Positions 2,319-34,933 of a stretch of DNA of 34,933 nt are shown here, piece by piece (position 1 is the first letter of the stretch; each line of letters opens with the position of its first letter). The stretch is from Saprospiraceae bacterium (lineage in GTDB: Bacteria; Bacteroidota; Bacteroidia; Chitinophagales; Saprospiraceae): NCBI GenBank assembly GCA_022841745.1, contig JALHQW010000017.1, positions 1-34,933 of the forward strand. The letters run 5' to 3'. A program made the translations under genes and the position numbers. The notes beneath the pieces are model-generated. The model ran no database searches, was not told the origin of the DNA, and worked only from the letters and a program-made list of their open reading frames with translations.

Positions 2319-3080
2319 ATGAAAAAACTGATGCCCGTTCTCAACCTGTTGGCGCTGGTAGCCGTGCTCGTCACCAACTACCTCGCCAATGCCCTGCCCA
2401 TTGCCGGGCGCAATCCCGCTGAAGTTTCGGACATGTTCCCCACGCTTTTTACGCCAGCAGGTTTCACTTTTTCCATTTGGGGCATCATTTACCTGTTGTT
2501 GATTGGCTTCGCCATTTACCAAGTCCGTTTTTTCAACAAGCCCGCCCCCATTTTTTTGGAAAAAATCGGCTGGCTATTCGTGCTCTCTTGCGCTGCCAAT
2601 GTGGGCTGGCTACTGGCCTTCCACCACTTACAAATCGGGCTGTCCATGCTCATCATGCTCGTCATTTTAGGCAGCCTTGTAGCTATTTATATTCGCATAA
2701 ATGAAGTTGGTACAACGACCTCTACTGCTGAGCGTTGGCTCGTTCGGCTGCCTTTCAGCGTTTACTTGGGCTGGATAACCGTTGCCACCATCGCCAATGC
2801 GAGCATCTTCCTCTCTAATCTCGGCTGGAACGGCGAACCTGGTGACCCTCAATTTTGGACGGTGGTAGTCATTGCAGCAGCAGTTATCGTGGGCATTTTG
2901 GCTTTGTTGAAGCGCCGTGATTTCGCTTTTGCCTTGGTCATTGTTTGGGCGCTGTTCGGCATTTACTCAAAGCGCATGGCCAATATCAGCGAACAAGATG
3001 GGATAGTGGAGGTGGCAGCTATTGCAGGTATGGTAGTGGTTGGCTTGGGTATAGTTTACCGTGCATTCAAGCGAAAATAA
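2319..3080 (+). CDS. TspO/MBR-like (tryptophan-rich sensory) membrane protein, long form
   Basis: A 253-residue integral membrane protein with about 7-8 hydrophobic segments. The TspO-like signature is 'FTPAGFTFSIWGIIYLLL' (about residues 45-62), followed by 'GWLFVLSCAANVGWLLAF' and 'RLPFSVYLGWITVATIAN'. Classical TspO has 5 helices and about 160 residues; this is the longer Bacteroidota type often annotated simply as tryptophan-rich sensory protein. TspO proteins bind porphyrins and take part in light- and oxygen-dependent stress responses in phototrophs. Here the ligand is not shown. It is followed after 6 bp by the TIGR03643 gene, so the two are probably co-transcribed. Its promoter region holds palindromic element copy 1. 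Confidence 0.8.
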   Translation: MKKLMPVLNLLALVAVLVTNYLANALPIAGRNPAEVSDMFPTLFTPAGFTFSIWGIIYLLLIGFAIYQVRFFNKPAPIFLEKIGWLFVLSCAANVGWLLAFHHLQIGLSMLIMLVILGSLVAIYIRINEVGTTTSTAERWLVRLPFSVYLGWITVATIANASIFLSNLGWNGEPGDPQFWTVVVIAAAVIVGILALLKRRDFAFALVIVWALFGIYSKRMANISEQDGIVEVAAIAGMVVVGLGIVYRAFKRK

Positions 3081-4167: not shown

Positions 4168-4171
4168 ACAA

Positions 4172-4203
4172 AAAATGTCCACATGCACGCATGTGGACAT
4201 TTT
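4172..4203 (-). terminator. Intrinsic terminator downstream of the rhodopsin gene
   Basis: A 15-bp perfect stem (aaaatgtccacatgc pairing with gcatgtggacatttt) around a 2-nt centre, which would open to a small loop. On the minus strand the stem is followed by a T-rich run (TTTTTTGTTAATT). It lies 35 bp beyond the rhodopsin stop codon, so it probably ends the blh-rhodopsin transcript. The stem is AT-flanked on both sides and could also act on the plus strand. Confidence 0.8.
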
Positions 4204-4237
4204 CCTTTCTTGAGAACTTCAATTTTCAGCAATAAAT

Positions 4238-4978
4238 TCAAGCAACAGCTGATTTTTTGGATACCGCCAGCGAATAAATCACCAAGCCAAATCCAATTTT
4301 GTTGATGGCATCACCAATATTGTAGATGATGTCCAAGCTTTTTGGATTGAGCACGCCGCTCAGCCAGCCAGAGCCTTCAATGGCCATGTAGCCGATGGGG
4401 TAAATGGCCCATCCGACCAGCACAAACCAACCAAGGGCACTGAAAGCCGATTGAAGGGCTGGGTCATTTGAGTTGTTGGCCAATTTTTTGGCACTGCCCA
4501 ACCATACCTCGTAAAGGATTCCGACATAACCAATCGTGGAAATAATGCCCCAAATTGGCGAATTGTCACGGAAGACCGTCTCACCGAGGTAGCCTGCCAC
4601 CAGCATCCAGAGGGAGTAGAAAATCATTTTCCAAAGTAGGGACTGCTTGGCGCCGAACGCCTTTAGGATGAGGTAGAATTCGACGCACATGAGCGGCACG
4701 GTCAAAATCCAGTCTATATAGCGAAATTCGGTTGGCGAGGTGCCGTTGGTGGCCCAAAAATCACGCATATAGAAGTAGTGCACCGCTGCGATAAACGTAA
4801 TGAGGCCCGATACTAGCATAGAGGTGCGCCACTTACCATCTTGATTCCACATCTCGATGAAAAAGAAGACGGAGGCGGCCATCATTGCCATGGAGCCGAT
4901 GAAGAAAGTAAAGCCCACGTAGTCGCCCGGTTGCAATACGGTGAGCATAATGGTTTGAAAACTTGAAAACATTTCCAT
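4238..4978 (-). CDS. Proteorhodopsin-type light-driven proton pump (green type, antenna-compatible)
   Basis: A 246-residue seven-helix microbial rhodopsin. Helix C reads RYIDWILTVPLMCVEFYLIL: Asp89 is the proton acceptor, Thr93 and Glu100 complete the DTE proton-pump motif, and Met97 occupies the spectral tuning site (equivalent to position 105 of green proteorhodopsin), predicting green absorption. His67 (VHYFYMR) is the partner of the acceptor Asp. Lys227 in helix G (AINKIGFG) binds retinal. In helix E, IWGIIST places Gly144 at the position of bacteriorhodopsin Trp138 and xanthorhodopsin Gly156, the glycine that lets a carotenoid antenna approach the retinal ring. Antenna binding is inferred. 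The gene follows blh by 61 bp on the same strand and ends at a strong terminator. ATG at 4978 or 4972 could be used. Confidence 0.95.
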   Translation of the reverse strand: MEMFSSFQTIMLTVLQPGDYVGFTFFIGSMAMMAASVFFFIEMWNQDGKWRTSMLVSGLITFIAAVHYFYMRDFWATNGTSPTEFRYIDWILTVPLMCVEFYLILKAFGAKQSLLWKMIFYSLWMLVAGYLGETVFRDNSPIWGIISTIGYVGILYEVWLGSAKKLANNSNDPALQSAFSALGWFVLVGWAIYPIGYMAIEGSGWLSGVLNPKSLDIIYNIGDAINKIGFGLVIYSLAVSKKSAVA

Positions 4979-5039: not shown

Positions 5040-6020
5040 TCACGTTGGCTGTTCACTTGTGTTGCCCACGTTAAATGGTATTGCAATCAACGGTTTTCGT
5101 ACCCGGTAAAGCCATTCCATCAGAAATGCATGAGGTACAGTAATGACTGCAATAAAAAGAAATAAAGCACCCATATTTTGGCCCTTATTAAAGGTATCAC
5201 CGAAGAAATATAGGAGCATCCCAAGCCCTGCGAAAGATACCAGTGTCAAAGGCAGCGACTGAATAAGATAGTCACTCATTCGATAGCCCGGCTTTGTTGT
5301 TTTTAGTAGTGAAACTTGGTGGTGCATTGCCTCAAACGAATGCCATAGTACGAAATAGACCCCAAACCCAACCAACAACGGTGTGGTGAAAAAGAGCATG
5401 GAGAGCAGTAAAATTTTGCCTATTTCTTGCTTGAATTCTTTTGAGGATAAAATCTGGGCGTGATTTAAATGAATGATTATACCGATGTTGGTAAAAATCA
5501 ATAGAAAAACAGAGACTGCACGTGTCATGGCAGATAAATGAAATTCTCCGACTTTCATCTCTGAAATAATTATCCCGGCTTGGTCGAAGTGCAGTAAAAC
5601 TGGTACGCCAATGATGAGCAACCCCCAATTGAGCATTATAGTAACCTGAACCAGCTTTGAAGGAAAACGGATATTAGCCCAATTACTTTGACCGAAATGA
5701 TAAGCTGATAACAGAATGAAAGTTCCGAATGCTATAATTGGTTCAAACGCCCATATTGCGATATAGGCAACCATTGAAAGTAAATAACCTAGTAGATACT
5801 TGAAGGGGCTAAAAACGGTGCCGGATAATTTCGCCAATTGCTTTGAGAGCATATAGTCACCCGCACCATGTGGTACTCCCAATAGTATGAGTAAAAACCC
5901 AAAGATCGGCAACGCATGCTCTACCAATGAATTTGGTACCAACAATCCGAGAAGTGCAATCAAACAAGTCATTATTTGCACTTTTCTATGTTTACCATCT
6001 ATGTCTAATGCGTTGGTCAT
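5040..6020 (-). CDS. blh: Brp/Blh family beta-carotene 15,15'-dioxygenase
   Basis: A 326-residue polytopic membrane enzyme that cleaves beta-carotene into two retinal molecules. Family histidines are visible: His51 in GVPHGAGD, His108 in SAYHFGQSNW, His227 with His233/His234 in LWHSFEAMHHQ, and His297 in VPHAFLMEWLY; several should bind the catalytic iron. About eight hydrophobic segments are apparent. The ATG at 6020 is preceded on the minus strand by aaggag directly abutting it, an unusually short spacing for a ribosome site. It lies immediately upstream of the rhodopsin gene on the same strand, the usual cofactor/apoprotein pairing. The coding sequence looks more AT-rich than neighbouring genes, compatible with acquisition by transfer. 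Confidence 0.95.
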   Translation of the reverse strand: MTNALDIDGKHRKVQIMTCLIALLGLLVPNSLVEHALPIFGFLLILLGVPHGAGDYMLSKQLAKLSGTVFSPFKYLLGYLLSMVAYIAIWAFEPIIAFGTFILLSAYHFGQSNWANIRFPSKLVQVTIMLNWGLLIIGVPVLLHFDQAGIIISEMKVGEFHLSAMTRAVSVFLLIFTNIGIIIHLNHAQILSSKEFKQEIGKILLLSMLFFTTPLLVGFGVYFVLWHSFEAMHHQVSLLKTTKPGYRMSDYLIQSLPLTLVSFAGLGMLLYFFGDTFNKGQNMGALFLFIAVITVPHAFLMEWLYRVRKPLIAIPFNVGNTSEQPT

Positions 6021-7896: not shown

Positions 7897-7940
7897 TTGT
7901 GAATATTGGGAGTAGTATTGCCCCAAATCCGGTTACCTGC

Positions 7941-8654
7941 ATGACGAGTTCAATCACGACACTGACCTTATTCCGTTTCTCCAATTTGTTGGATAAAATA
8001 TGGGCCTTCGGGCAAATGCAGTTTGCCCATCCACATATCAGCAAATCACCCGGCCTGAATTTCTACAAACTTATGGGCAGTGGAAGGGAGCTTGGCTTCA
8101 ATCCACTGCCCGACTGGGGAGTCTATGCTATGCTCGGTATTTGGGAAAACGAGCAGGCAGCCGAGCGGTTTTTCAGCAAGTCGGAAATTTACCAGCGTTA
8201 TCGGGCGCACACCAGTGAGCAATGGACGATTTTCATGAAAACCCGCCAAGCCAAGGGCCTTTGGTCGGGTGGCAATCCATTCACTCCCTCTACCGATTTA
8301 GATGAGGCCAACCCGCTTATCGCTGTCATCACCCGTGCCACCATCCGCCCCAGCAAACTGGTCAAGTTTTGGCGATACGTACCCATATCGCAGCGGCCCA
8401 TCCAACAAGGCTGCAAAGGGCTAATTTATACCAAAGGAATCGGTGAGGCGCCATTGGTACAGATGGCCACTTTCAGCCTTTGGGAAAACATGGAAGCCCT
8501 AAAAAACTTCGCCTACAATAGCCCTGAACACCAGGTGGCCATCCAGAAAACCCGTCAATTGGATTGGTACAAAGAGGAAATGTTCGTGCGGTTTCAGCCT
8601 TATCGCTCGGTGGGGACTTGGGGCGGGGAAGCCGTTTTGGCTGCCTACTTATAG
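7941..8654 (+). CDS. crtA: CrtA-like spheroidene monooxygenase family (carotenoid C-2 oxygenase)
   Basis: A 237-residue protein closely resembling CrtA of purple bacteria: an N-terminal 'TTLTLFRFSNLLDKIWAFGQM', then PGLNFYKLMGSGRELGFNP, 'GVYAMLGIWENEQAAERFF' and 'GLWSGGNPFTPS'. CrtA introduces a keto group at C-2 of acyclic carotenoids such as spheroidene. The ATG at 7941 is preferred over the GTG at 7899 because CrtA proteins begin just before the TTLTLFRF block. Together with cruF and crtD further on, it predicts oxygenation at C-2' of a 1'-hydroxy-3',4'-didehydro end group. Whether the product is keto or hydroxy cannot be read from the sequence. Confidence 0.88.
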   Translation: MTSSITTLTLFRFSNLLDKIWAFGQMQFAHPHISKSPGLNFYKLMGSGRELGFNPLPDWGVYAMLGIWENEQAAERFFSKSEIYQRYRAHTSEQWTIFMKTRQAKGLWSGGNPFTPSTDLDEANPLIAVITRATIRPSKLVKFWRYVPISQRPIQQGCKGLIYTKGIGEAPLVQMATFSLWENMEALKNFAYNSPEHQVAIQKTRQLDWYKEEMFVRFQPYRSVGTWGGEAVLAAYL

Positions 8655-10846: not shown

Positions 10847-11779
10847 TCAACCCGGCCTCGCCACCACTGTCAAAAACCCCATCGAAAACCATTTTTGCAG
10901 CTTATAAATCGGCGCATTCAGCACCATTCCCGCCACATAACCCACGAACCTTGGTTCCATCGAAGCCGACCAGTCAATTCGCTGCTGTTCCATTTGGCTC
11001 ATCCAATGCAGCGTATAGGGGTCGAGGGTGCCGTAAGTGATTACCTGCTCCACTTGCCAGCCGCTGTTTTTCATCAACAATGCTAGGTTATTGGGGGAAT
11101 AAAGCGCCGTATGCCGGGGTGTATGGTAGCCCGCCCAGTGCTGCCCGAATTTACGGCGGGTATAGCTGTCAAAATTGGGCACCTCCACGATGAGCCGGGT
11201 ACCGGGGTGGGCAATGTCGAGCAATTGCTGAAGGTGCTGCTGGGGGCGGTAATCGTGCTCCAGGTAATGCCACATCGTGATGACGTCCACGGGTGGCTCG
11301 CCATGCAGGTCGGCCACTTCGCCTTTTCGAAGGTCAATGCCCTTGTAGGTTTCCGGCTCGTTTATCCAGCCTTCATCGCTGAAATCAAGGCCAATGAGTT
11401 GGGCAGGCGTATCGTTGCGCAAGCAGGCCAAAAAACTCGGCTTGCCGCAGCCGACATCGAGTATGCGGCTCTGGGCGGTCAGGTCATGGTGCTTTTTCAC
11501 CTGATTCACCCTTGCTTGGTCAATGTTTCGCTGGTCTTGTTTCACGAAGGAAGCATATTTGCCCCAAGCCTCCTCCACCCGGTAGGGCAGGTAAGCGGCA
11601 GTGTAAAACTGGCCCAGTTCCGCCTCCGGCACACGGGGGGTCAGGAACACTAGGCCGCAGTCTTCGCAACGGTCGAAATTGTATTTTGTGGGCAGGTGCT
11701 CGTGCATCATGGCCGGGGTCTGCACGAAGGGCTGGTGGTTACCGGAATTGCAGGCGAGGCATTGGGTCAATTTTTCCAT
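10847..11779 (-). CDS. SAM-dependent methyltransferase with N-terminal Cys4 zinc motif, in the carotenoid operon
   Basis: A 310-residue class I methyltransferase. The N-terminus has two Cys pairs, Cys7/Cys10 and Cys38/Cys41 (CLACN, CEDCGLVF), a likely zinc ribbon. SAM-binding motif I is ILDVGCGKPSFLACL from residue 106, followed by LIGLDFSDEG and a post-motif 'VDVITMWHYLEHDYRPQQHL'. A late 'YHTPRHTALYSPNNL' resembles methyltransferases acting on surface sugars or lipids. The ATG at 11779 shares one base with the crtY stop (TGATG), implying translational coupling. A carotenoid 1'-O-methylation role analogous to CrtF is an inference from position only; other substrates remain possible. Confidence 0.85.
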   Translation of the reverse strand: MEKLTQCLACNSGNHQPFVQTPAMMHEHLPTKYNFDRCEDCGLVFLTPRVPEAELGQFYTAAYLPYRVEEAWGKYASFVKQDQRNIDQARVNQVKKHHDLTAQSRILDVGCGKPSFLACLRNDTPAQLIGLDFSDEGWINEPETYKGIDLRKGEVADLHGEPPVDVITMWHYLEHDYRPQQHLQQLLDIAHPGTRLIVEVPNFDSYTRRKFGQHWAGYHTPRHTALYSPNNLALLMKNSGWQVEQVITYGTLDPYTLHWMSQMEQQRIDWSASMEPRFVGYVAGMVLNAPIYKLQKWFSMGFLTVVARPG

Positions 11780-12927
11780 CAGCGGGTTACGTGGTTGACC
11801 AATGAGCGGAGAAACGGGGGCCAAGGGAAGCCCACCATGATGCCCAAATCCTCGGCAAAGCTCGTTTGGTCGTCGAGGTAGGCGAAGATTTTTTGCACCG
11901 GATATTTGGCATACATGGTTTCAAAAAGTTTTGGCCCCAAGTGGTTCTGGCGGTTCAGGACATCGAGGAACAAGGCATCGTAGAAGCGGAATTTATGTGG
12001 AATTAGGCCCTTATTCGCTGGCCTGCCCGCCTTCAGGTTCTCCACGATTTTCCTCGAATTTCGCTCGCAGTTCTTGAAAGAATAACCCGTGGAAGGCTTC
12101 ACCCAGCCCCCAGCTGTACCGATGCGGATATGCTTGCCCTGCGAATATTTTTCAAAAGGAAAATCGCTCATCGGAATCACACCTTGTTCCTGCTCCACGA
12201 TGTCGAAATCTTGGAGTTTCAATATATCACTGACATAGCGGTGCAACATGCGGTCGTAGTCGCCATTGTTCAGCAGTTCGGGCGTGAACAGCGTGAACTC
12301 CACCAAAGCCTCCCTTTTGCTGAAGGGCAATACATAAGTAAAACTCGTTGCATCTGGCCAAAGCAGCCGAAAGTCCATCATGGTGAATCGGCTGGGGTCG
12401 AAACGGTCATCGGGGGTGCGGATGACCCATCCTTTGAAATGCTGTAGGATGCGGGTGTATTTGTCTTTTTTTTCGGTAAAATCTGCTGGGATGCGGCTAT
12501 CGAAGACATAGTCCGCAGTGTAGCTGTGTTTATTGGCGTTAATGCGAATTGGGGCGCCATTTTCAACCGACTGCACGTCTTCGTTTTCCCATTGGAACAT
12601 GGGGCTGGCCATGATTTCCCGCTTCGCAAAATCATAGAAATCAATCCCCCGGAGCATTTTGTAACGGTATGGTGGCAGCGAAAGCGGTATAGCTTTTTCT
12701 TTTGAAAAAAAATCGCCCTGCGACCAGCTTTGGCGCAGCAATTTATCCCATTTCCCATCCGCTTTTTCCCAAAAACAAAAAGTGCGGTCGTTTTGGTCTT
12801 TCGCCGATTTTTCAAGGATTAGAATTCGCTTTTGCTGGAAAAACGGCTCGTCCCGCATGGCGAGTGCAAGGTGGAGGCCCGCCGCTCCTGCCCCGATAAT
12901 GGCGATATCAAAATTGGTAGATTGCAT
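11779..12927 (-). CDS. crtY: Lycopene beta-cyclase, CrtY type
   Basis: A 382-residue flavoprotein. The N-terminal dinucleotide-binding motif is DIAIIGAGAAGLHLALAM, followed by RTFCFWE (residues 48-54), a block typical of lycopene cyclases. ALVEFTLF places Glu210 at the position of the catalytic acid in CrtY. A C-terminal 'GTAGGWVKPSTGYSF' is the second family landmark. It forms beta-ionone rings on lycopene, giving gamma- and beta-carotene, the precursors of the monocyclic xanthophylls and of retinal. The ATG at 12927 is chosen because GAGAAG must lie near the N-terminus; the frame upstream overlaps cruF. It overlaps cruF by 20 bp and the methyltransferase by 1 bp. Confidence 0.93.
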   Translation of the reverse strand: MQSTNFDIAIIGAGAAGLHLALAMRDEPFFQQKRILILEKSAKDQNDRTFCFWEKADGKWDKLLRQSWSQGDFFSKEKAIPLSLPPYRYKMLRGIDFYDFAKREIMASPMFQWENEDVQSVENGAPIRINANKHSYTADYVFDSRIPADFTEKKDKYTRILQHFKGWVIRTPDDRFDPSRFTMMDFRLLWPDATSFTYVLPFSKREALVEFTLFTPELLNNGDYDRMLHRYVSDILKLQDFDIVEQEQGVIPMSDFPFEKYSQGKHIRIGTAGGWVKPSTGYSFKNCERNSRKIVENLKAGRPANKGLIPHKFRFYDALFLDVLNRQNHLGPKLFETMYAKYPVQKIFAYLDDQTSFAEDLGIMVGFPWPPFLRSLVNHVTR

Positions 12928-13570
12928 AGAAAAAAGCGAAAAATACAGCTTGTGAGGCAAAATGGTGCAATGGGAGCGGATTCTTTCCCTCTGGCAAGTC
13001 TTTTTGCGCAAGTACCTGCAAGATGAAGGAGACCAAGAACCAATCCACGAAGTTTCGGATTGGGGCACGGCCAGCCTCCCAATGCCAGAAATCAAAGACC
13101 GGTGCGATAGGTTCGATGAAGAAATCGAGCGCAACCATCAGTATCGCTCCGCAAAACGGGGCCAACCATTTGTGCCGGATAAAACGCTTGCAAATAGTGG
13201 CTGTCAGAAAGGTCAGCACCACCCAGTTGATGCCAATCAGCAAGGGTACGCCAAACAGTTTAAAACCGAGGTTTTCGCCGTACTGATAGGTTCCGAAAAG
13301 CAGGCTCGTGTTCACGCCCACGACTTCCACGCCCATGCCGATGAGATAAACCAGCGACCAAATCAACAGGCTACGCCAACCATTTTTCATTGGAAAATTC
13401 CAATAGAGCAAACCCAGTCCGAGCAATAGGTTGAACGGTGTTTTGGGCAAAAACCAGTCGTCCTGGCCAAGCCAAATACCAATCATGCCAGAAATGGTGA
13501 CCAACCAAATGGCGAAAACGGAAACTTGTATTTTCCCGAATTGAGGTGGGAAAACTAATGCATAGTTCAT
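12908..13570 (-). CDS. cruF: CruF-like carotenoid 1',2'-hydratase (DUF422)
   Basis: A 220-residue membrane protein with about six to seven hydrophobic helices. Family landmarks are GMGVEVVGVNTSLLFGTYQY, GVPLLIGINWVVL and VALDFFIEPIAPVFDFWHW. CruF adds water across the C-1',2' double bond of gamma-carotene-type ends, giving a 1'-hydroxyl. The start overlaps the crtD stop by 4 nt (ATGA), and the end overlaps crtY, so translation of these genes is probably coupled. The downstream sugar transferase CruG seen with CruF in some organisms is absent here. Confidence 0.9.
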   Translation of the reverse strand: MNYALVFPPQFGKIQVSVFAIWLVTISGMIGIWLGQDDWFLPKTPFNLLLGLGLLYWNFPMKNGWRSLLIWSLVYLIGMGVEVVGVNTSLLFGTYQYGENLGFKLFGVPLLIGINWVVLTFLTATICKRFIRHKWLAPFCGAILMVALDFFIEPIAPVFDFWHWEAGRAPIRNFVDWFLVSFILQVLAQKDLPEGKNPLPLHHFASQAVFFAFFYAIYQF

Positions 13571-15036
13571 GACTCAGCGATGATTAAACCTGCCGTAATC
13601 TTGGCAGAAAGCAGGCATAACGGAATGCCACCACCCGGATGCACGGAGCCGCCGCAGTAGTAGAGTTGCTTGATTTTATTGGAAAAATTGGGGTGGCGCA
13701 AGAAAGCCGCAAACTTGGAATTGCTCGCTGCGCCGTACAGTGCGCCTCGGTAGCTGCTCGTCCGCTGCTCAATCAGCGGCGGCGTAAGTACATCTTCTAC
13801 TTCGATGAGCGGAGCCAGGTCGGTGCCCAACAGGCGGTTCACTTTGGCGAGGATGTCGTGGCGGGCTTGCGCCACCAGTGCCTCCCAGTCCTGCCCATAG
13901 TCGCCGGGAGCGTTTATCATCACGAACCAGTTTTCACAGCCCGTTGGTGCATCGCTTGGGGCTTCCTTGCTGGTGATGTTGAGGTAAACAGTAGGGTCGT
14001 TGAACAGGGTTTCATGTTCGAACAAATGCGCAAACTCCGTTCGGTAATCGCCGCTGAAAAGGATATTGTGCAAGTCCAATTCGGGGAAGTTTCCACGGAT
14101 GCCCCAGTAGAAAATCACCGCAGAACTGGAGCGCTCCTGGCGTAGGGTTCGCGCTGGGTGGGGCTGTTCAGGCAGCAGTTTTTTATAAGTAGAAAAAACG
14201 TCCATGTTCGAAACTATCGCATCCGCAAAATATTGATTTTCAGCCGTTTGGATGCCAACTGCACGGCGGTTTTTGACCAATATCTGCTCCACTTTTTGAC
14301 CAAAATGAAACTGAACACCTTGCCGCAATGCCAGCTCATACAGGCTGGTGGTGATGCTGTGCATGCCGCCTTTCGGGAAATAGGTGCCTAGGTGCAGTTC
14401 GAGGTGCGGAATCATGCTCATGATGCCCGGTGTGCGGTAGGGCGACGAGCCGTTGTAGGTGGCATATCGGTTGAACAATTGGACAAGGTGCGGCTCGCCG
14501 ATGGCCGCTTCGTTGAGGGAATGGAGGCTGGTGCCAATGTCCATCTTCGACATTTGCGCAAGGGCCTTGACCGTGTCCACGGATAGGTAGGTGCCAATTT
14601 TGTGCAGCGATTTTTCTAAAAAAAGCGGGGCGGTAAGGTCGTATTTCCGTTGGCCATTTTTCAAATAATCCAGCAAGGACGCAGCATCAACGCCAAACTT
14701 GGCTGCCGCTTCCTTTGCAAAAACCTCCCGGTCGGCATTGACGGTGAAGCGGGCGCCGTCCTCCCAAAAATAATTGCAAACTGAATCCTTGCGGTGATAC
14801 TGAAAAGAATCGGCAGGTCGCTCACCAAGCAGTCCGAACAGCTCCGTCACCAATTCGGGCATAGTAAACAAAGAAGGCCCAGCATCGAAGCGGTAGCCGC
14901 CCAATTCGAAAGCATGGAGCTTACCGCCAGGGTAGTCGTTTGCCTCAAAAACAGTTACCTCCATCCCTGCTGCCCGCAACCGCAAAGCAGTTGCCAATCC
15001 AGCAATCCCGGCACCTATGATAATGGCTGATGACAT
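13567..15036 (-). CDS. crtD: CrtD-type 1'-hydroxycarotenoid 3',4'-desaturase (CrtI family)
   Basis: A 489-residue member of the phytoene desaturase family. FAD-binding motif SAIIIGAGIAGLATALRLRA is at the N-terminus, followed by PGGKLHAFELGGYRFDAGPS. The C-terminus has the family signature YYCGGSVHPGGGIPLCLLSA. CrtD rather than CrtI is favoured by its place in front of cruF, by the block SSSAVIFYWGI, and by similarity to flavobacterial CrtD sequences as I know them. It would introduce the 3',4' double bond next to the 1'-hydroxyl made by CruF. It is the first gene of the four-gene overlapping operon. No TAnnTTTG motif was found upstream on the minus strand, so its promoter is not identified. 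Confidence 0.9.
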   Translation of the reverse strand: MSSAIIIGAGIAGLATALRLRAAGMEVTVFEANDYPGGKLHAFELGGYRFDAGPSLFTMPELVTELFGLLGERPADSFQYHRKDSVCNYFWEDGARFTVNADREVFAKEAAAKFGVDAASLLDYLKNGQRKYDLTAPLFLEKSLHKIGTYLSVDTVKALAQMSKMDIGTSLHSLNEAAIGEPHLVQLFNRYATYNGSSPYRTPGIMSMIPHLELHLGTYFPKGGMHSITTSLYELALRQGVQFHFGQKVEQILVKNRRAVGIQTAENQYFADAIVSNMDVFSTYKKLLPEQPHPARTLRQERSSSAVIFYWGIRGNFPELDLHNILFSGDYRTEFAHLFEHETLFNDPTVYLNITSKEAPSDAPTGCENWFVMINAPGDYGQDWEALVAQARHDILAKVNRLLGTDLAPLIEVEDVLTPPLIEQRTSSYRGALYGAASNSKFAAFLRHPNFSNKIKQLYYCGGSVHPGGGIPLCLLSAKITAGLIIAES

Positions 15037-25286: not shown

Positions 25287-26711
25287 TTACTTCACTAACG
25301 TATCAATCATCCCATTGAAGATAAAAAAATGAAACGGCAGCACGAGGTACCAGTAAACCCGACCCCAAAGCCCACGAGGGCGGAAGGTGGCCGTTTGAGA
25401 CAGCACCGCTTTACCGTCCTTTTCGGTGATGTGGAACTCCAGCCAAGCCTCGCCAGGCAGTTTCATCTCTGCGAATAGGAGCAGGCGCTTGCCCGCCCGG
25501 TCGGCGATGAGTACCCGCCAGAAATCGAGGGCATCGCCGGGGCTTAGTTCGTACGGGTGTGTGCGGCCCCTGCGCAGTCCCACGCCGCCTGCCATCTTGT
25601 CCATGTGGCCCCGGATTTTCCAAAGAAAGGTGCCGTAGTACCAGCCTTTGTTGCCGCCTATGCACCAGATGCGTTCCAGCACCTCGGCCTCGTTGCCGGA
25701 GAGGGTTCGGCTTTTTTCATCCTTGAAACAGCCGAACTTTGGCACCTCCACGTAATCCATCAGCTTAGGGTTGGTGTCGAAGGAACTGAAGGCGTCCTTC
25801 CAACTGCTCACCACCATGTTCTGCTCGATGCGTTGGAAGGCCATTTCCACCGCTGCTTTGTAGGATATTAGTTGGATGCCAAGGTCAACTGGCAGTTGGT
25901 TGGGGCGGCAGATGACGTTGATTTTCATGCTGTCCACGAGGTTGGTGGCGAGGTGGTAAGAGGTCGCAGTGATGAAATAAAGCCAATAGGAGGAAAGCTT
26001 GGGCGTCATCACCGGCACTGTCCATATATAGCGGCGCAGCTTTCGCACTTCTGCAAATTTCAACAACATCTGTTTGTAGCTCAGCACTTCTGGGCCGCCA
26101 ATGTCGAAGTCTTGGTTGTAGGTTTCCGTTCGACCTATGACGCCAGACAAAAACTGCACGACATTGCGAATGCTGATGGGCTGGCACAAGGTGTTGAGCC
26201 ATTTAGGGGCAATCATGACGGGCAGTTTTTCCACCAAATCCCGGATGATTTCGAAGGAGGCGCTGCCCGACCCGACGATGATGCCCGCTCGAAGTACCGT
26301 AACTGGCACTTTGCCGCTCCGCAATATTTTTTCCACTTCAAAACGACTGCTCAGGTGGTCGGAAAGCTCTGTTTCATTGACAATGCCGCTGAGGTAGATA
26401 ATCTGTTGGCACTGGGTAGCTTGTACCAATTTGCTAAAATTTACGGCAGTAGTGGCTTCCTTGCTCGAAAAATCGCCCTTGCTACTCATGGAATGGATGA
26501 GAAAATACGCCACGTCAAGGTCAGTGGGGAATGCAGTGGTCGGTGCTGGGTCAAGGAAGTCCACCTCGATGATTTCAAGGTGTTCATGCGTCATTCCCTC
26601 GAACCGCTTTCGGTTGCGGACGCAGCAATAAACGGTGTGTCCTTGTTCGAGCAATACGGGAAGCAGTCTTTGGCCGATATAGCCGTTGGCACCTGTGAGG
26701 AGTATTTTCAT
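25287..26711 (-). CDS. SDR-family NAD(P)-binding protein fused to DUF2867
   Basis: A 474-residue protein. The N-terminal half is an atypical short-chain dehydrogenase/NAD(P)H-binding Rossmann domain (MKILLTGANGYIGQRLLPVL; 'YFLIHSMSSKGDFSSKEATT'; 'IIYLSGIVNETELSDHLSSR'; 'VTVLRAGIIVGSGSASFEII'). The C-terminal ~150 residues match DUF2867 (GNKGWYYGTFLWKIRGHMDK; 'YELSPGDALDFWRVLIADRA'; 'RLLLFAEMKLPGEAWLEFHI'). The pair is common in Bacteroidota and Actinobacteria; the reaction is unknown. The C-terminal fold is START/polyketide-cyclase-like, so it may bind a lipid or isoprenoid. It is divergent from dps. Confidence 0.85.
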   Translation of the reverse strand: MKILLTGANGYIGQRLLPVLLEQGHTVYCCVRNRKRFEGMTHEHLEIIEVDFLDPAPTTAFPTDLDVAYFLIHSMSSKGDFSSKEATTAVNFSKLVQATQCQQIIYLSGIVNETELSDHLSSRFEVEKILRSGKVPVTVLRAGIIVGSGSASFEIIRDLVEKLPVMIAPKWLNTLCQPISIRNVVQFLSGVIGRTETYNQDFDIGGPEVLSYKQMLLKFAEVRKLRRYIWTVPVMTPKLSSYWLYFITATSYHLATNLVDSMKINVICRPNQLPVDLGIQLISYKAAVEMAFQRIEQNMVVSSWKDAFSSFDTNPKLMDYVEVPKFGCFKDEKSRTLSGNEAEVLERIWCIGGNKGWYYGTFLWKIRGHMDKMAGGVGLRRGRTHPYELSPGDALDFWRVLIADRAGKRLLLFAEMKLPGEAWLEFHITEKDGKAVLSQTATFRPRGLWGRVYWYLVLPFHFFIFNGMIDTLVK

Positions 26712-31745: not shown

Positions 31746-31781
31746 CCCAAGCTTCGGGTTTCCAATCAAAAAAATGTTATG
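31746..31781 (+). promoter_or_regulatory. Conserved pre-start leader with overlapping mini-ORF, copy 1
   Basis: The last ~35 nt before the first DUF4397 gene share a pattern with those before the second: cccaag, gggtttc, aa, caaaaaaatgt, then the ATG. An upstream ATG at 31774 opens a 2-codon frame (ATG TTA TGA) whose stop overlaps the true ATG at 31779, so re-initiation could set expression. The A-run probably serves as the ribosome-loading region. Confidence 0.5.
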
Positions 31782-33452
31782 AAAAAACTATCAGCAACCC
31801 TCCTTGGCTTTTTCATGGTTTGTTTTGCGATGGCACAAACGGCCCGTGTGCAGATTATCCACAATTCTCCGACTCCGACCGTTGACATTTACGCAGGCAC
31901 TTCTAAATTGCTTGACAATTTCGCATTCCGTACGGCAACACCTTATATTGATGTTCCTGCCAATATGCAAATCCCAATTGGAGTTGCCTTGGCAAACAGC
32001 ACCTCATCTGCGGATGCAATTGCGACCTTCCCAGTCACCTTCCAAGCCAACCGCACCTATGTAGTCGTCGCTGCCGGCGTGGTGGGCGGTACACAGCCCT
32101 TCAACTTGTTTGCCTACGATATGGGGGCTGAAACCTCCAATGCTCCAGGCAACGTAGGAATTGCCTTTTTCCATGGCTCGCCCGATGCACCAGAGGTTGA
32201 CATCACTACGGGTGGCAACGTGCTTTACGACAATGTTTCTTTTGGCGAATTCTCCGGCTACCTCAACGTGCCAGCGGCCAGCTATCAGTTGGACGTAACG
32301 CCTGGCAACAACAACTCGACCATCGTGGCCAGCTACAATGCTGATTTCAGCTTTTGGAAAGGCCGCACGGCAGTCGTGTTTGCAAGTGGCTTCTTGGGTG
32401 GTGATCAGCCCGGCTTCGAGCCTTGGGTCGCCCTCGACAATGGCGGTACTTTCCCCCTCAAATCCGTCACGACTGGAGGTGGTGGTGGAACTGGCGGCGG
32501 CGGTGGCAGCACAGCCCGTGTCCAAATCATCCACAACTCACCCACACCTACCGTTGACCTTTGGGTAAATGGCAGCAAGTTCCTCGATGATTTCGCTTTC
32601 CGCACCGCCACGCCCTATGTGGACGTACCGGCTGGTGTGAACCTGAACCTCGGCGTTGCCCTTGGCAACAGCATGATGGCCAGCGATGCGTTGGTCAGCT
32701 ATGACCTCAACTTGATGGCTGGCAAAAAATACGTTGTTGTGGCCAACGGTATCGTAGGTGGCAATCCTGGCTTCGACCTTGAAATATTTGACATGGGACA
32801 GGAAATGGCAGATGCACCAGGCAACGTGGGCCTTCTTTTCTTCCATGGTTCACCTGACGCACCTGAAGTGGACATCAAAACAGGCAATAGTGTCCTCTTC
32901 GACAATGTCTCCTTTGGCGAATTTTCTGGCTACCTCAACGTACCAGCCGCCAGTTATGAATTGGATGTGACACCCGGCAACAACAACTCGACCATTGTAG
33001 CCAGCTATGATGCTGATTTCAGTTTCTGGAAAGGCCGTACAGCCGTGGTGTTCGCAAGTGGTTTCCTCGGTGGTGGTAACCCAGGCTTCGAGCCTTGGGT
33101 AGCCTTGGACAATGGAGGCACTTTCCCGCTGCGTCCAGCGACCAATCTCAACGGTGGCGGTGGCAGCGCCAATCGTTCTGCTGTCAATACTTCAAGCAGC
33201 AAAGCCACGGTATATCCAAACCCAACTGCTGATATCCTCAATATTAGTATCGAGAACACGGATGAAGCCGATGTCCTCTTGAGCGTAGTAAATGTTAATG
33301 GCCAAACCGTACACGTACGTGACATGGGCATTCAATCGGCTGGCAACCAAACCATGCAATTGGAATTGAAAGGCCTTCAAAATGGCACTTATTTCCTTCG
33401 CATTCAAGCCGGCAAAGAAATTCAGACTACTCGTTTCCAAGTTATTAGGTGA
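31779..33452 (+). CDS. Exported DUF4397 repeat protein with T9SS sorting domain
   Basis: A 557-residue surface or secreted protein. Signal peptide MKKLSATLLGFFMVCFAMA. Two DUF4397 units follow (about residues 21-230 and 247-462), each with a first half beginning ARVQIIHNSPTPTVD and a second half beginning 'FFHGSPDAPEVDI', so there are four related half-modules. A glycine linker (TTGGGGGTGGGGGS) separates the units. The C-terminal ~75 residues are a type A sorting domain (ATVYPNPTADILNISI; GLQNGTYFLRIQAGKEI), directing type IX secretion and surface attachment. The function of DUF4397 is not known; the beta-rich repeats suggest an adhesive or structural surface role. Confidence 0.92.
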   Translation: MKKLSATLLGFFMVCFAMAQTARVQIIHNSPTPTVDIYAGTSKLLDNFAFRTATPYIDVPANMQIPIGVALANSTSSADAIATFPVTFQANRTYVVVAAGVVGGTQPFNLFAYDMGAETSNAPGNVGIAFFHGSPDAPEVDITTGGNVLYDNVSFGEFSGYLNVPAASYQLDVTPGNNNSTIVASYNADFSFWKGRTAVVFASGFLGGDQPGFEPWVALDNGGTFPLKSVTTGGGGGTGGGGGSTARVQIIHNSPTPTVDLWVNGSKFLDDFAFRTATPYVDVPAGVNLNLGVALGNSMMASDALVSYDLNLMAGKKYVVVANGIVGGNPGFDLEIFDMGQEMADAPGNVGLLFFHGSPDAPEVDIKTGNSVLFDNVSFGEFSGYLNVPAASYELDVTPGNNNSTIVASYDADFSFWKGRTAVVFASGFLGGGNPGFEPWVALDNGGTFPLRPATNLNGGGGSANRSAVNTSSSKATVYPNPTADILNISIENTDEADVLLSVVNVNGQTVHVRDMGIQSAGNQTMQLELKGLQNGTYFLRIQAGKEIQTTRFQVIR

Positions 33453-33670: not shown

Positions 33671-33701
33671 CCCAAGGGTTTCTAACCAAAAAAATGTGAT
33701 G
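33671..33701 (+). promoter_or_regulatory. Conserved pre-start leader with overlapping mini-ORF, copy 2
   Basis: It matches the block before the first DUF4397 gene: cccaag, gggtttc, aa, ccaaaaaaatgt, ATG. Here the upstream ATG at 33694 is followed at once by TGA (33697-33699), which overlaps the true ATG at 33699. Confidence 0.5.
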
Positions 33702-34933
33702 AAAAGACTTACAGTTTTGCTCGCATGCCTTTTTGTGGCATGTGCGGGCTGGGCGCAGACTGCCCGCCTGCAGATCATCCACAATTCGCCCACCCCAACT
33801 GTTGATATTTGGGTCAATGGGCAACCTTTCCTCACCAATTTCCAGTATCGCACCGCCACGCCTTATGTGGATGTTCCAGCGGGTGTATTGCTTGATATTG
33901 GTGTTGCGCCTTCCCCAAGTGATGACCCTAGCGACATCATTGCCAATTTCCCGGTGACGTTGGACGCTGGAGGCACTTATGTGGCCATTGCGTCTGGTAT
34001 TGTTGGAAATGCAACCACGCCATTCACTTTGAATTTAGTGGCCAATGCCCGCGAGGCTGCAACATCTACTGATGTTGACCTAATCGTGAACCACGGCTCC
34101 ACGGACGCCCTAGCGGTGGACGTTATCGCCCGTGGCGTTGCCACCATCGTAAGTGGTGCTGCCTACGGCGACGTGACCCCTTACATCACCGTACCTGCCG
34201 CCGACTATACCCTCGACATCACGCCCGCAGGGCAGAACAGCGAAATCGTTGCTTCCTACACTGCGCCGTTGAGCGGCTTGGGTGGTGGTGCGGCCGTTGT
34301 ATTCGCTTCCGGCTTCTTGGCCCCGGCTGCTGGCCAGCCAGCGTTTGGCCTGTTCGCCGCACTGCCGAACGGCACCGTGCTCGAACTTCCTGCCGTACAG
34401 AACACTGCCCGTGTGCAGATCATCCACAACGCCGCCAACCCGACGGTTGACATCTGGGTGAACGGTGCGCCGTTCCTGACGAACTTTGCCTACCGCACGG
34501 CGACGCCCTATGTGGACGTGCCTGCTGGCACGACCTTGAGCATTGGCGTAGCGCCATCGCCGAGCACATCCCCTGCCGACATCATTGCCACGTTCCCAGC
34601 GAACTTCGCACCGAACGGCAGCTATGTGGTTTTGGCTTCCGGCCTTGTCGGCAGTGCAACCACGCCTTTTACCTTGAACGTCGTAGCTGACACCCGTGAG
34701 GCTGCCCTTGCCGCTGGCACGGTTGACCTCATCGTGAACCATGGTTCAACGGACGCCCCGGCGGTTGACGTGATCGCCCGTGGCGTTGCCACCATCGTAA
34801 GTGGTGCTGCCTACGGCGACGTGACCCCTTACATCACCGTACCTGCCGCCGACTATACCCTCGACATCACGCCCGCAGGGCAGAACAGCGAAATCGTTGC
34901 TTCCTACACTGCGCCGTTGAGCGGCTTGGGTGG
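33699..34933 (+). CDS. Exported DUF4397 repeat protein, 3' end outside the window
   Basis: An open frame of at least 411 codons that runs off the right edge. Signal peptide MKRLTVLLACLFVACAGWA, then DUF4397 modules: ARLQIIHNSPTPTVDIWVNG, 'LIVNHGSTDALAVDVIARG', ARVQIIHNAANPTVDIWVNG and 'LIVNHGSTDAPAVDVIARG'. The repeat period is 216 residues (648 bp), and part of it is identical at the DNA level. A T9SS sorting domain is expected beyond the window by analogy with the preceding gene. It is a paralogue of that gene in tandem, but more similar between its own repeats than to its neighbour. Confidence 0.9.
   Translation, partial: MKRLTVLLACLFVACAGWAQTARLQIIHNSPTPTVDIWVNGQPFLTNFQYRTATPYVDVPAGVLLDIGVAPSPSDDPSDIIANFPVTLDAGGTYVAIASGIVGNATTPFTLNLVANAREAATSTDVDLIVNHGSTDALAVDVIARGVATIVSGAAYGDVTPYITVPAADYTLDITPAGQNSEIVASYTAPLSGLGGGAAVVFASGFLAPAAGQPAFGLFAALPNGTVLELPAVQNTARVQIIHNAANPTVDIWVNGAPFLTNFAYRTATPYVDVPAGTTLSIGVAPSPSTSPADIIATFPANFAPNGSYVVLASGLVGSATTPFTLNVVADTREAALAAGTVDLIVNHGSTDAPAVDVIARGVATIVSGAAYGDVTPYITVPAADYTLDITPAGQNSEIVASYTAPLSGLG
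34125..34933 (+). repeat. Tandem 648-bp intragenic repeat with an identical 161-bp block
   Basis: Positions 34125-34285 and 34773-34933 are identical over 161 bp, up to the window edge. Just upstream of this block the two repeats differ at several sites, so the identity has a sharp left boundary, which suggests recent unequal exchange or gene conversion. The right boundary is outside the window. Confidence 0.9.

Follow-up and report, generated by a model that had tools for sequence, protein, structure and literature searches.

The proteorhodopsin gene and its putative antenna-site residues

We analysed a 34,933-nt stretch of the Saprospiraceae bacterium assembly GCA_022841745.1 (contig JALHQW010000017.1, positions 1 to 34,933; hereafter the window), which carries on its minus strand, at 4238..4978, a gene for a 246-residue green proteorhodopsin (PR). 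An earlier sequence-only reading had placed the gene at these coordinates, which are correct, and had called its product a green PR from an Asp-Thr-Glu (DTE) motif, Met97 and Lys227. The translation, the match to Pfam Bac_rhodopsin (PF01036; 151.9 bits against a cut-off of 24.6) and the residues assigned by alignment (H67, D89, T93, M97, E100, G144, Y197 and K227) bear this out. We consider it probable that the protein is a green-light outward proton pump of a Bacteroidota PR clade, with a host-made 3-hydroxylated carotenoid antenna at the opening beside Gly144. The pump motif, the glycine register, the relatives and the host's pathway genes are read directly from sequence, and from them we infer carotenoid binding, the identity of the carotenoid and energy transfer.

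The window rhodopsin and its relatives were aligned in MAFFT with six reference rhodopsins. The 110 Bacteroidota sequences comprise the window protein, 80 relative loci (the top 80 of 583 ranked by similarity to the window protein, a selection that favours uniformity) and 29 order-level loci. The latter are what remains of 35 order-level rhodopsin matches after setting aside the window protein and five matches without a locus (those in G063, G014 and G042, and a second copy each in G029 and G170). Lys227 (codon 4298..4300, minus strand), which we take to be the retinal Schiff base lysine of the rhodopsin family, is a lysine in 110/110 sequences. Met97 (codon 4688..4690, minus strand) occupies the spectral tuning site, where Leu or Met gives green absorption in PRs (PMC4831467). 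D89, T93 and E100 supply the DTE motif and, taken together with K227, H67 and M97, the aligned residues correspond to a DTE proton pump that absorbs green light. No other Bac_rhodopsin match occurs in the host assembly of 8.43 Mb, and NCBIfam returned no match to the gene's product.

Gly144 (codon 4547..4549, minus strand, counting from the start codon at 4978) occupies the same alignment column as Gly156 of xanthorhodopsin (XR), as had been proposed, and Gly153 of Kin4B8. The XR sequence used matches PDB 3ddl across all 273 residues, and the surrounding W-G-x-x-S-T block is gapless between it and the window protein; two empty columns in the block are due to the green PR 2l6x alone, whose register at the glycine is unsure because MAFFT and HMMER place it differently. 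A green PR is described as having Phe at this position (PMC9151804). The glycines of XR and Kin4B8 open a fenestration (PMC12308411, PMC13093654), and PMC12308411 names a fenestration glycine and a conserved tyrosine as the signs of an antenna site. The window protein has both, its Tyr197 aligning with XR Tyr207 and Kin4B8 Tyr204. Both residues are also invariant (110/110 each), and M97 is found in 108/110 sequences, the remaining two being NDQ pumps. Since the glycine occurs in all 110 aligned Bacteroidota rhodopsins, it says little about the window protein in particular; we rejected it as a distinguishing mark, and on this alignment it marks the lineage instead.

An AlphaFold model built with 40 of the 80 relative loci has a mean predicted local distance difference test score (pLDDT) of 86.2 and a predicted template modelling score of 0.84. 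Its top Foldseek match is 9jou (about 62% identity, TM 0.87 by query length), an entry titled as the zeaxanthin-bound light-driven proton pumping rhodopsin NM-R1. NM-R1 shares 62.6% identity with the window protein over 227 columns, together with the DTE motif, the tuning-site Met, the fenestration Gly and the conserved Tyr, but it has Gly at position 148 and a Gly-Thr-Pro pocket floor, against Thr148 and Ile200-Glu201-Gly202 in the window protein. KR1 of Dokdonia eikasta, a flavobacterial PR that likewise has the glycine and the tyrosine (PMC12308411), differs by its published residues in having a Thr-Asp floor in place of Glu-Gly. Kin4B8 (8i2z) and the Salinibacter XR (3ddl) share the fenestration Gly, Thr at 148, the conserved Tyr and the DTE motif; however, they are only 29.3% and 32.6% identical to the window protein, with Leu at the tuning site and other floors. 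In a quick tree, which carries a long-branch warning, the window protein falls in a 109-row PR branch (support 100), apart from psXR, Gloeobacter rhodopsin (GR), XR and Kin4B8. Descent from the xanthorhodopsin family was rejected on this tree and the 29–33% identities.

Retinal and carotenoid genes of the host

Immediately upstream of the rhodopsin gene lies blh (5040..6020, minus strand), encoding the beta-carotene 15,15'-dioxygenase that makes retinal (TIGR03753, 168.1 bits against a cut-off of 95.25; PF15461, 164.6 bits). Because blh is 61 bp upstream on the same strand and a terminator-like hairpin of 16 pairs follows the rhodopsin gene (4170..4205, minus strand; the scan as a whole shows no excess, with 3 found and 2.6 expected), the two genes likely form a transcription unit. 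Blh diverges far faster than the adjoining PR: compared with locus L002 (8980-10738), identity over the best segments is 49% in Blh but 92% in the PR.

On the plus strand, a CrtA-like gene at 7899..8654 (NF045923, 231.5 bits, below the cut-off of 300) probably encodes a carotenoid 2-hydroxylase (CrtA-OH), by analogy with Bacteroidetes CrtA, which acts as a hydroxylase (PMC2889829, PMC11855829). Farther along, all on the minus strand, are crtY for lycopene cyclase (11779..13134; PF05834, 169.4 bits; its real start is probably within the listed open reading frame), cruF for carotenoid 1,2-hydratase (12908..13570; PF04240, 98.5 bits against a cut-off of 25, with the NCBIfam CruF models below their cut-offs) and crtD for 1-hydroxycarotenoid 3,4-desaturase (13567..15036; NF042421, 761.3 bits against a cut-off of 500). 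Carotenoid-modifying genes had been placed within 4 kb of the rhodopsin gene, which holds for blh and for the CrtA-like gene (2.9 kb) but not for crtY, cruF and crtD, which start at 6.8, 7.9 and 8.6 kb.

Outside the window, crtI, crtB and crtZ stand side by side on contig C23. CrtZ was found by protein search; PF04116 missed it, and NCBIfam gave no match to the CrtZ query. Two other candidates for the beta-ring hydroxylase were dropped. One, on contig C6, is the sole PF04116 match; its best NCBIfam model, for ornithine lipid hydroxylase, scores 74.7 bits where the cut-off is 475. The other is a CrtR-like desaturase on contig C5 (34.1 bits, cut-off 475), which may still be a second hydroxylase. 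CrtW was not found in the host, the FA_desaturase loci giving a best E of 0.01 against a CrtW query and the genome search no match at E 1e-8; CrtO-type ketolases were not searched separately. One P450 gene was also found in the host.

With CrtZ present and no CrtW match, the gene content of the host leads us to expect 3-hydroxylated, non-ketolated carotenoids. In Nonlabens spongiae, a seven-gene kit yields myxol (PMC11855829). All seven kinds occur here (crtI, crtB and crtZ, with crtY, cruF, crtD and the crtA-like gene of the window). By analogy, gene content therefore lets us predict that a native antenna would most likely be myxol and/or zeaxanthin.

Across 198 genomes of the order, 32 have a rhodopsin and 166 do not, G042 (below the cut-off) not being counted among the former. 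The comparisons that follow are hints and not tests: the genomes are related (the 10 rhodopsin genomes of the host family represent 8 genera) and in part incomplete, and carotenoid genes are required for retinal in any case. PF04240 (cruF) occurs in 25/32 rhodopsin genomes against 83/166 others (p 0.0035), cruF and crtZ together in 18/32 against 56/166 (p 0.027) and CrtW in 0/32 against 15/166 (p 0.14). Within the host family, cruF is found in 10/10 rhodopsin genomes and 12/27 others (p 0.002), crtZ in 10/10 and 22/27 (p 0.30), and cruF among crtZ-positive genomes in 10/10 and 12/22 (p 0.013).

Three further observations concern the rest of the window. A TspO/MBR-like membrane protein (2319-3080; 22.8 bits against a Pfam cut-off of 24) is encoded 1.2 kb from the PR gene. 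An SDR-DUF2867 gene (25287-26711) lies 20 kb from it, and a homologue, 57-62% identical, is found about 2-4.5 kb past the PR gene in 13/80 relative loci (e.g. L034, L036 and L061), many of them from flavobacteria; SDR-DUF2867 and PR possibly belong to a shared light-response neighbourhood. The adjoining open reading frames 31779-33452 and 33696-34931 share, by eye, a repeated block (e.g. TARVQIIHNSPTPTVDI) that looks like a tandem duplication.

Two types of ring-pocket floor

The floor of the carotenoid ring pocket is formed by Ser208-Tyr209 in Kin4B8, Thr-Asp in KR1, Thr-Glu in EinA29G6 and Met-Ala in XR. The polar pairs go with 3-hydroxy carotenoids, while ketocarotenoid sites are hydrophobic, as in XR, and the Kin4B8 S208A substitution leaves 2% of zeaxanthin binding (PMC12308411). 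The corresponding pair in the window protein is Glu201-Gly202 (Glu201 codon 4376..4378, minus strand, aligned with Kin4B8 Ser208), with one polar residue that is neither Ser nor Thr; a nearby indel makes the second position unsure.

Among the 110 sequences, residues 200-201 are Gly-Thr in 66 (GT type) and Pro-His or Pro-Tyr in the two NDQ pumps; the other 42 (IE type) have Ile or Met at 200 and Glu, Pro or Asp at 201. Residue 148 tracks the floor, being Thr in 41/42 IE-type sequences (Ser in one) and Gly in 62/66 GT-type sequences. The window protein is of the IE type, with Thr148, Ile200 and Glu201 in place of Gly, Gly and Thr; its Thr148 (codon 4535..4537, minus strand) aligns with Kin4B8 Thr157, a residue named in PMC13093654. 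In the quick tree all 42 IE-type sequences lie in one 43-row branch (support 98; the extra row is L022), and NM-R1 is placed in the GT part. Because they share a branch, a single origin is conceivable for the coupled change at 148 and the floor, and common descent may account for the coupling. Some IE-type PRs (L005, L007, L008, L009, L010, L013, L020 and L027) are labelled Ekhidna, Crocinitomicaceae, Flammeovirgaceae, Cyclobacteriaceae or Marinoscillum while nested in a mainly Saprospiria branch; these out-of-place labels reflect either transfer between groups or mislabelled bins.

Genomes of the two types also differ in carotenoid genes: crtZ was found in 10/10 IE-type genomes checked (the window's included) against 9/18 GT-type genomes (p 0.0098; the genomes are related and not independent). 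Our search of the open-licence literature found no carotenoid-binding test assignable to an IE-type PR. We tentatively propose, as a possibility we rate below even chances, that the IE type is a Bacteroidota PR clade with an antenna pocket rebuilt for monocyclic carotenoids of the myxol/saproxanthin type, Thr148, Ile/Met200 and Glu/Pro/Asp201 having replaced Gly148 and Gly-Thr. Glu201 would then hold the 3-hydroxyl of the single beta-ring. If true, this would be a second mode of 3-hydroxy-carotenoid binding beside the Ser/Thr type.

A probable carotenoid antenna and its alternatives

In the mechanism that we propose, the window gene would supply the outward green-light proton pump, and Blh, encoded just upstream, would cleave beta-carotene to the retinal bound at Lys227. 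Gly144 would leave an opening next to the ring of retinal. The antenna would be a 3-hydroxylated carotenoid made by the host, with myxol and zeaxanthin as the likeliest candidates; it would pack against the protein, its hydroxylated beta-ring occupying the opening, and the energy that it absorbs would be passed to retinal. The sequence-only reading had named the protein a candidate for such an antenna. That candidacy is strengthened by the zeaxanthin-bound NM-R1 as top structural match, by CrtZ without CrtW in the host, and by KR1 and EinA29G6, both PRs, which bind lutein and zeaxanthin, KR1 taking 3-hydroxylated xanthophylls (PMC12308411); it is weakened by the universality of the glycine and by a floor altered from those of Kin4B8 and KR1. 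Because PMC12308411 reports this binding and the residues that mark it, and 9jou is titled as zeaxanthin-bound, the antenna idea for PRs is already in print, and the window protein is a largely expected addition to a known kind.

Several observations weigh against an antenna. The most abundant marine PR type is described as not binding carotenoid, and GR with the G178W substitution binds none and pumps better (PMC9151804); because this carotenoid-free protein pumps better, pumping does not require an antenna. Where Kin4B8 has Ser208 and KR1 a Thr, the window protein has Glu201 and sister sequences carry Pro or Asp, and the AlphaFold model is weakest near this floor (pLDDT 72-76 at residues 191-210). 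Enrichment of crtZ among the order's rhodopsin genomes was rejected (22/32 against 98/166, p 0.33), and Gly144 is kept in 9/29 order-level loci whose genomes have no CrtZ match. Five genomes of a single genus (G021, G071, G082, G035 and G089; loci L104, L105, L106, L107 and L100) encode a PR that carries this glycine but gave no CrtZ match; four of the five have PF04240.

These observations bear on the alternative that the glycine was inherited from an ancestor that bound an antenna or was merely open, so that the opening of the IE subclade is carotenoid-free, or serves, for example, retinal entry, and the pump works with a single chromophore. Such an origin would explain a glycine that is universal, found in the CrtZ-negative genomes just mentioned and in 2/29 order-level loci that encode NDQ pumps, as well as the loss in the IE subclade of the floor residue required in Kin4B8. 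However, Tyr197 is just as universal as the glycine, and crtZ accompanies every IE-type PR checked, if among related genomes. On balance we hold this explanation to be rather unlikely. That the pump instead uses a 4-keto carotenoid, like XR and GR, is very improbable: its helix-E W-G-x-x-S-T block is identical to those of XR, GR and Kin4B8, unlike that of NM-R1 with Gly at 148, but no CrtW was found in the host or in any rhodopsin genome of the order (0/32 against 15/166 others, p 0.14; CrtO-type ketolases were not searched separately), and the Glu-Gly floor differs from the hydrophobic Met-Ala of XR.

If the carotenoid antenna is real, one small pump would gather both carotenoid-absorbed and green light for its host bacterium. 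The interest of the protein lies in the contrast between two pocket types, rather than in a glycine common to the sampled lineage: the presence of both types in one lineage sets up a natural experiment on the residues that determine carotenoid choice.
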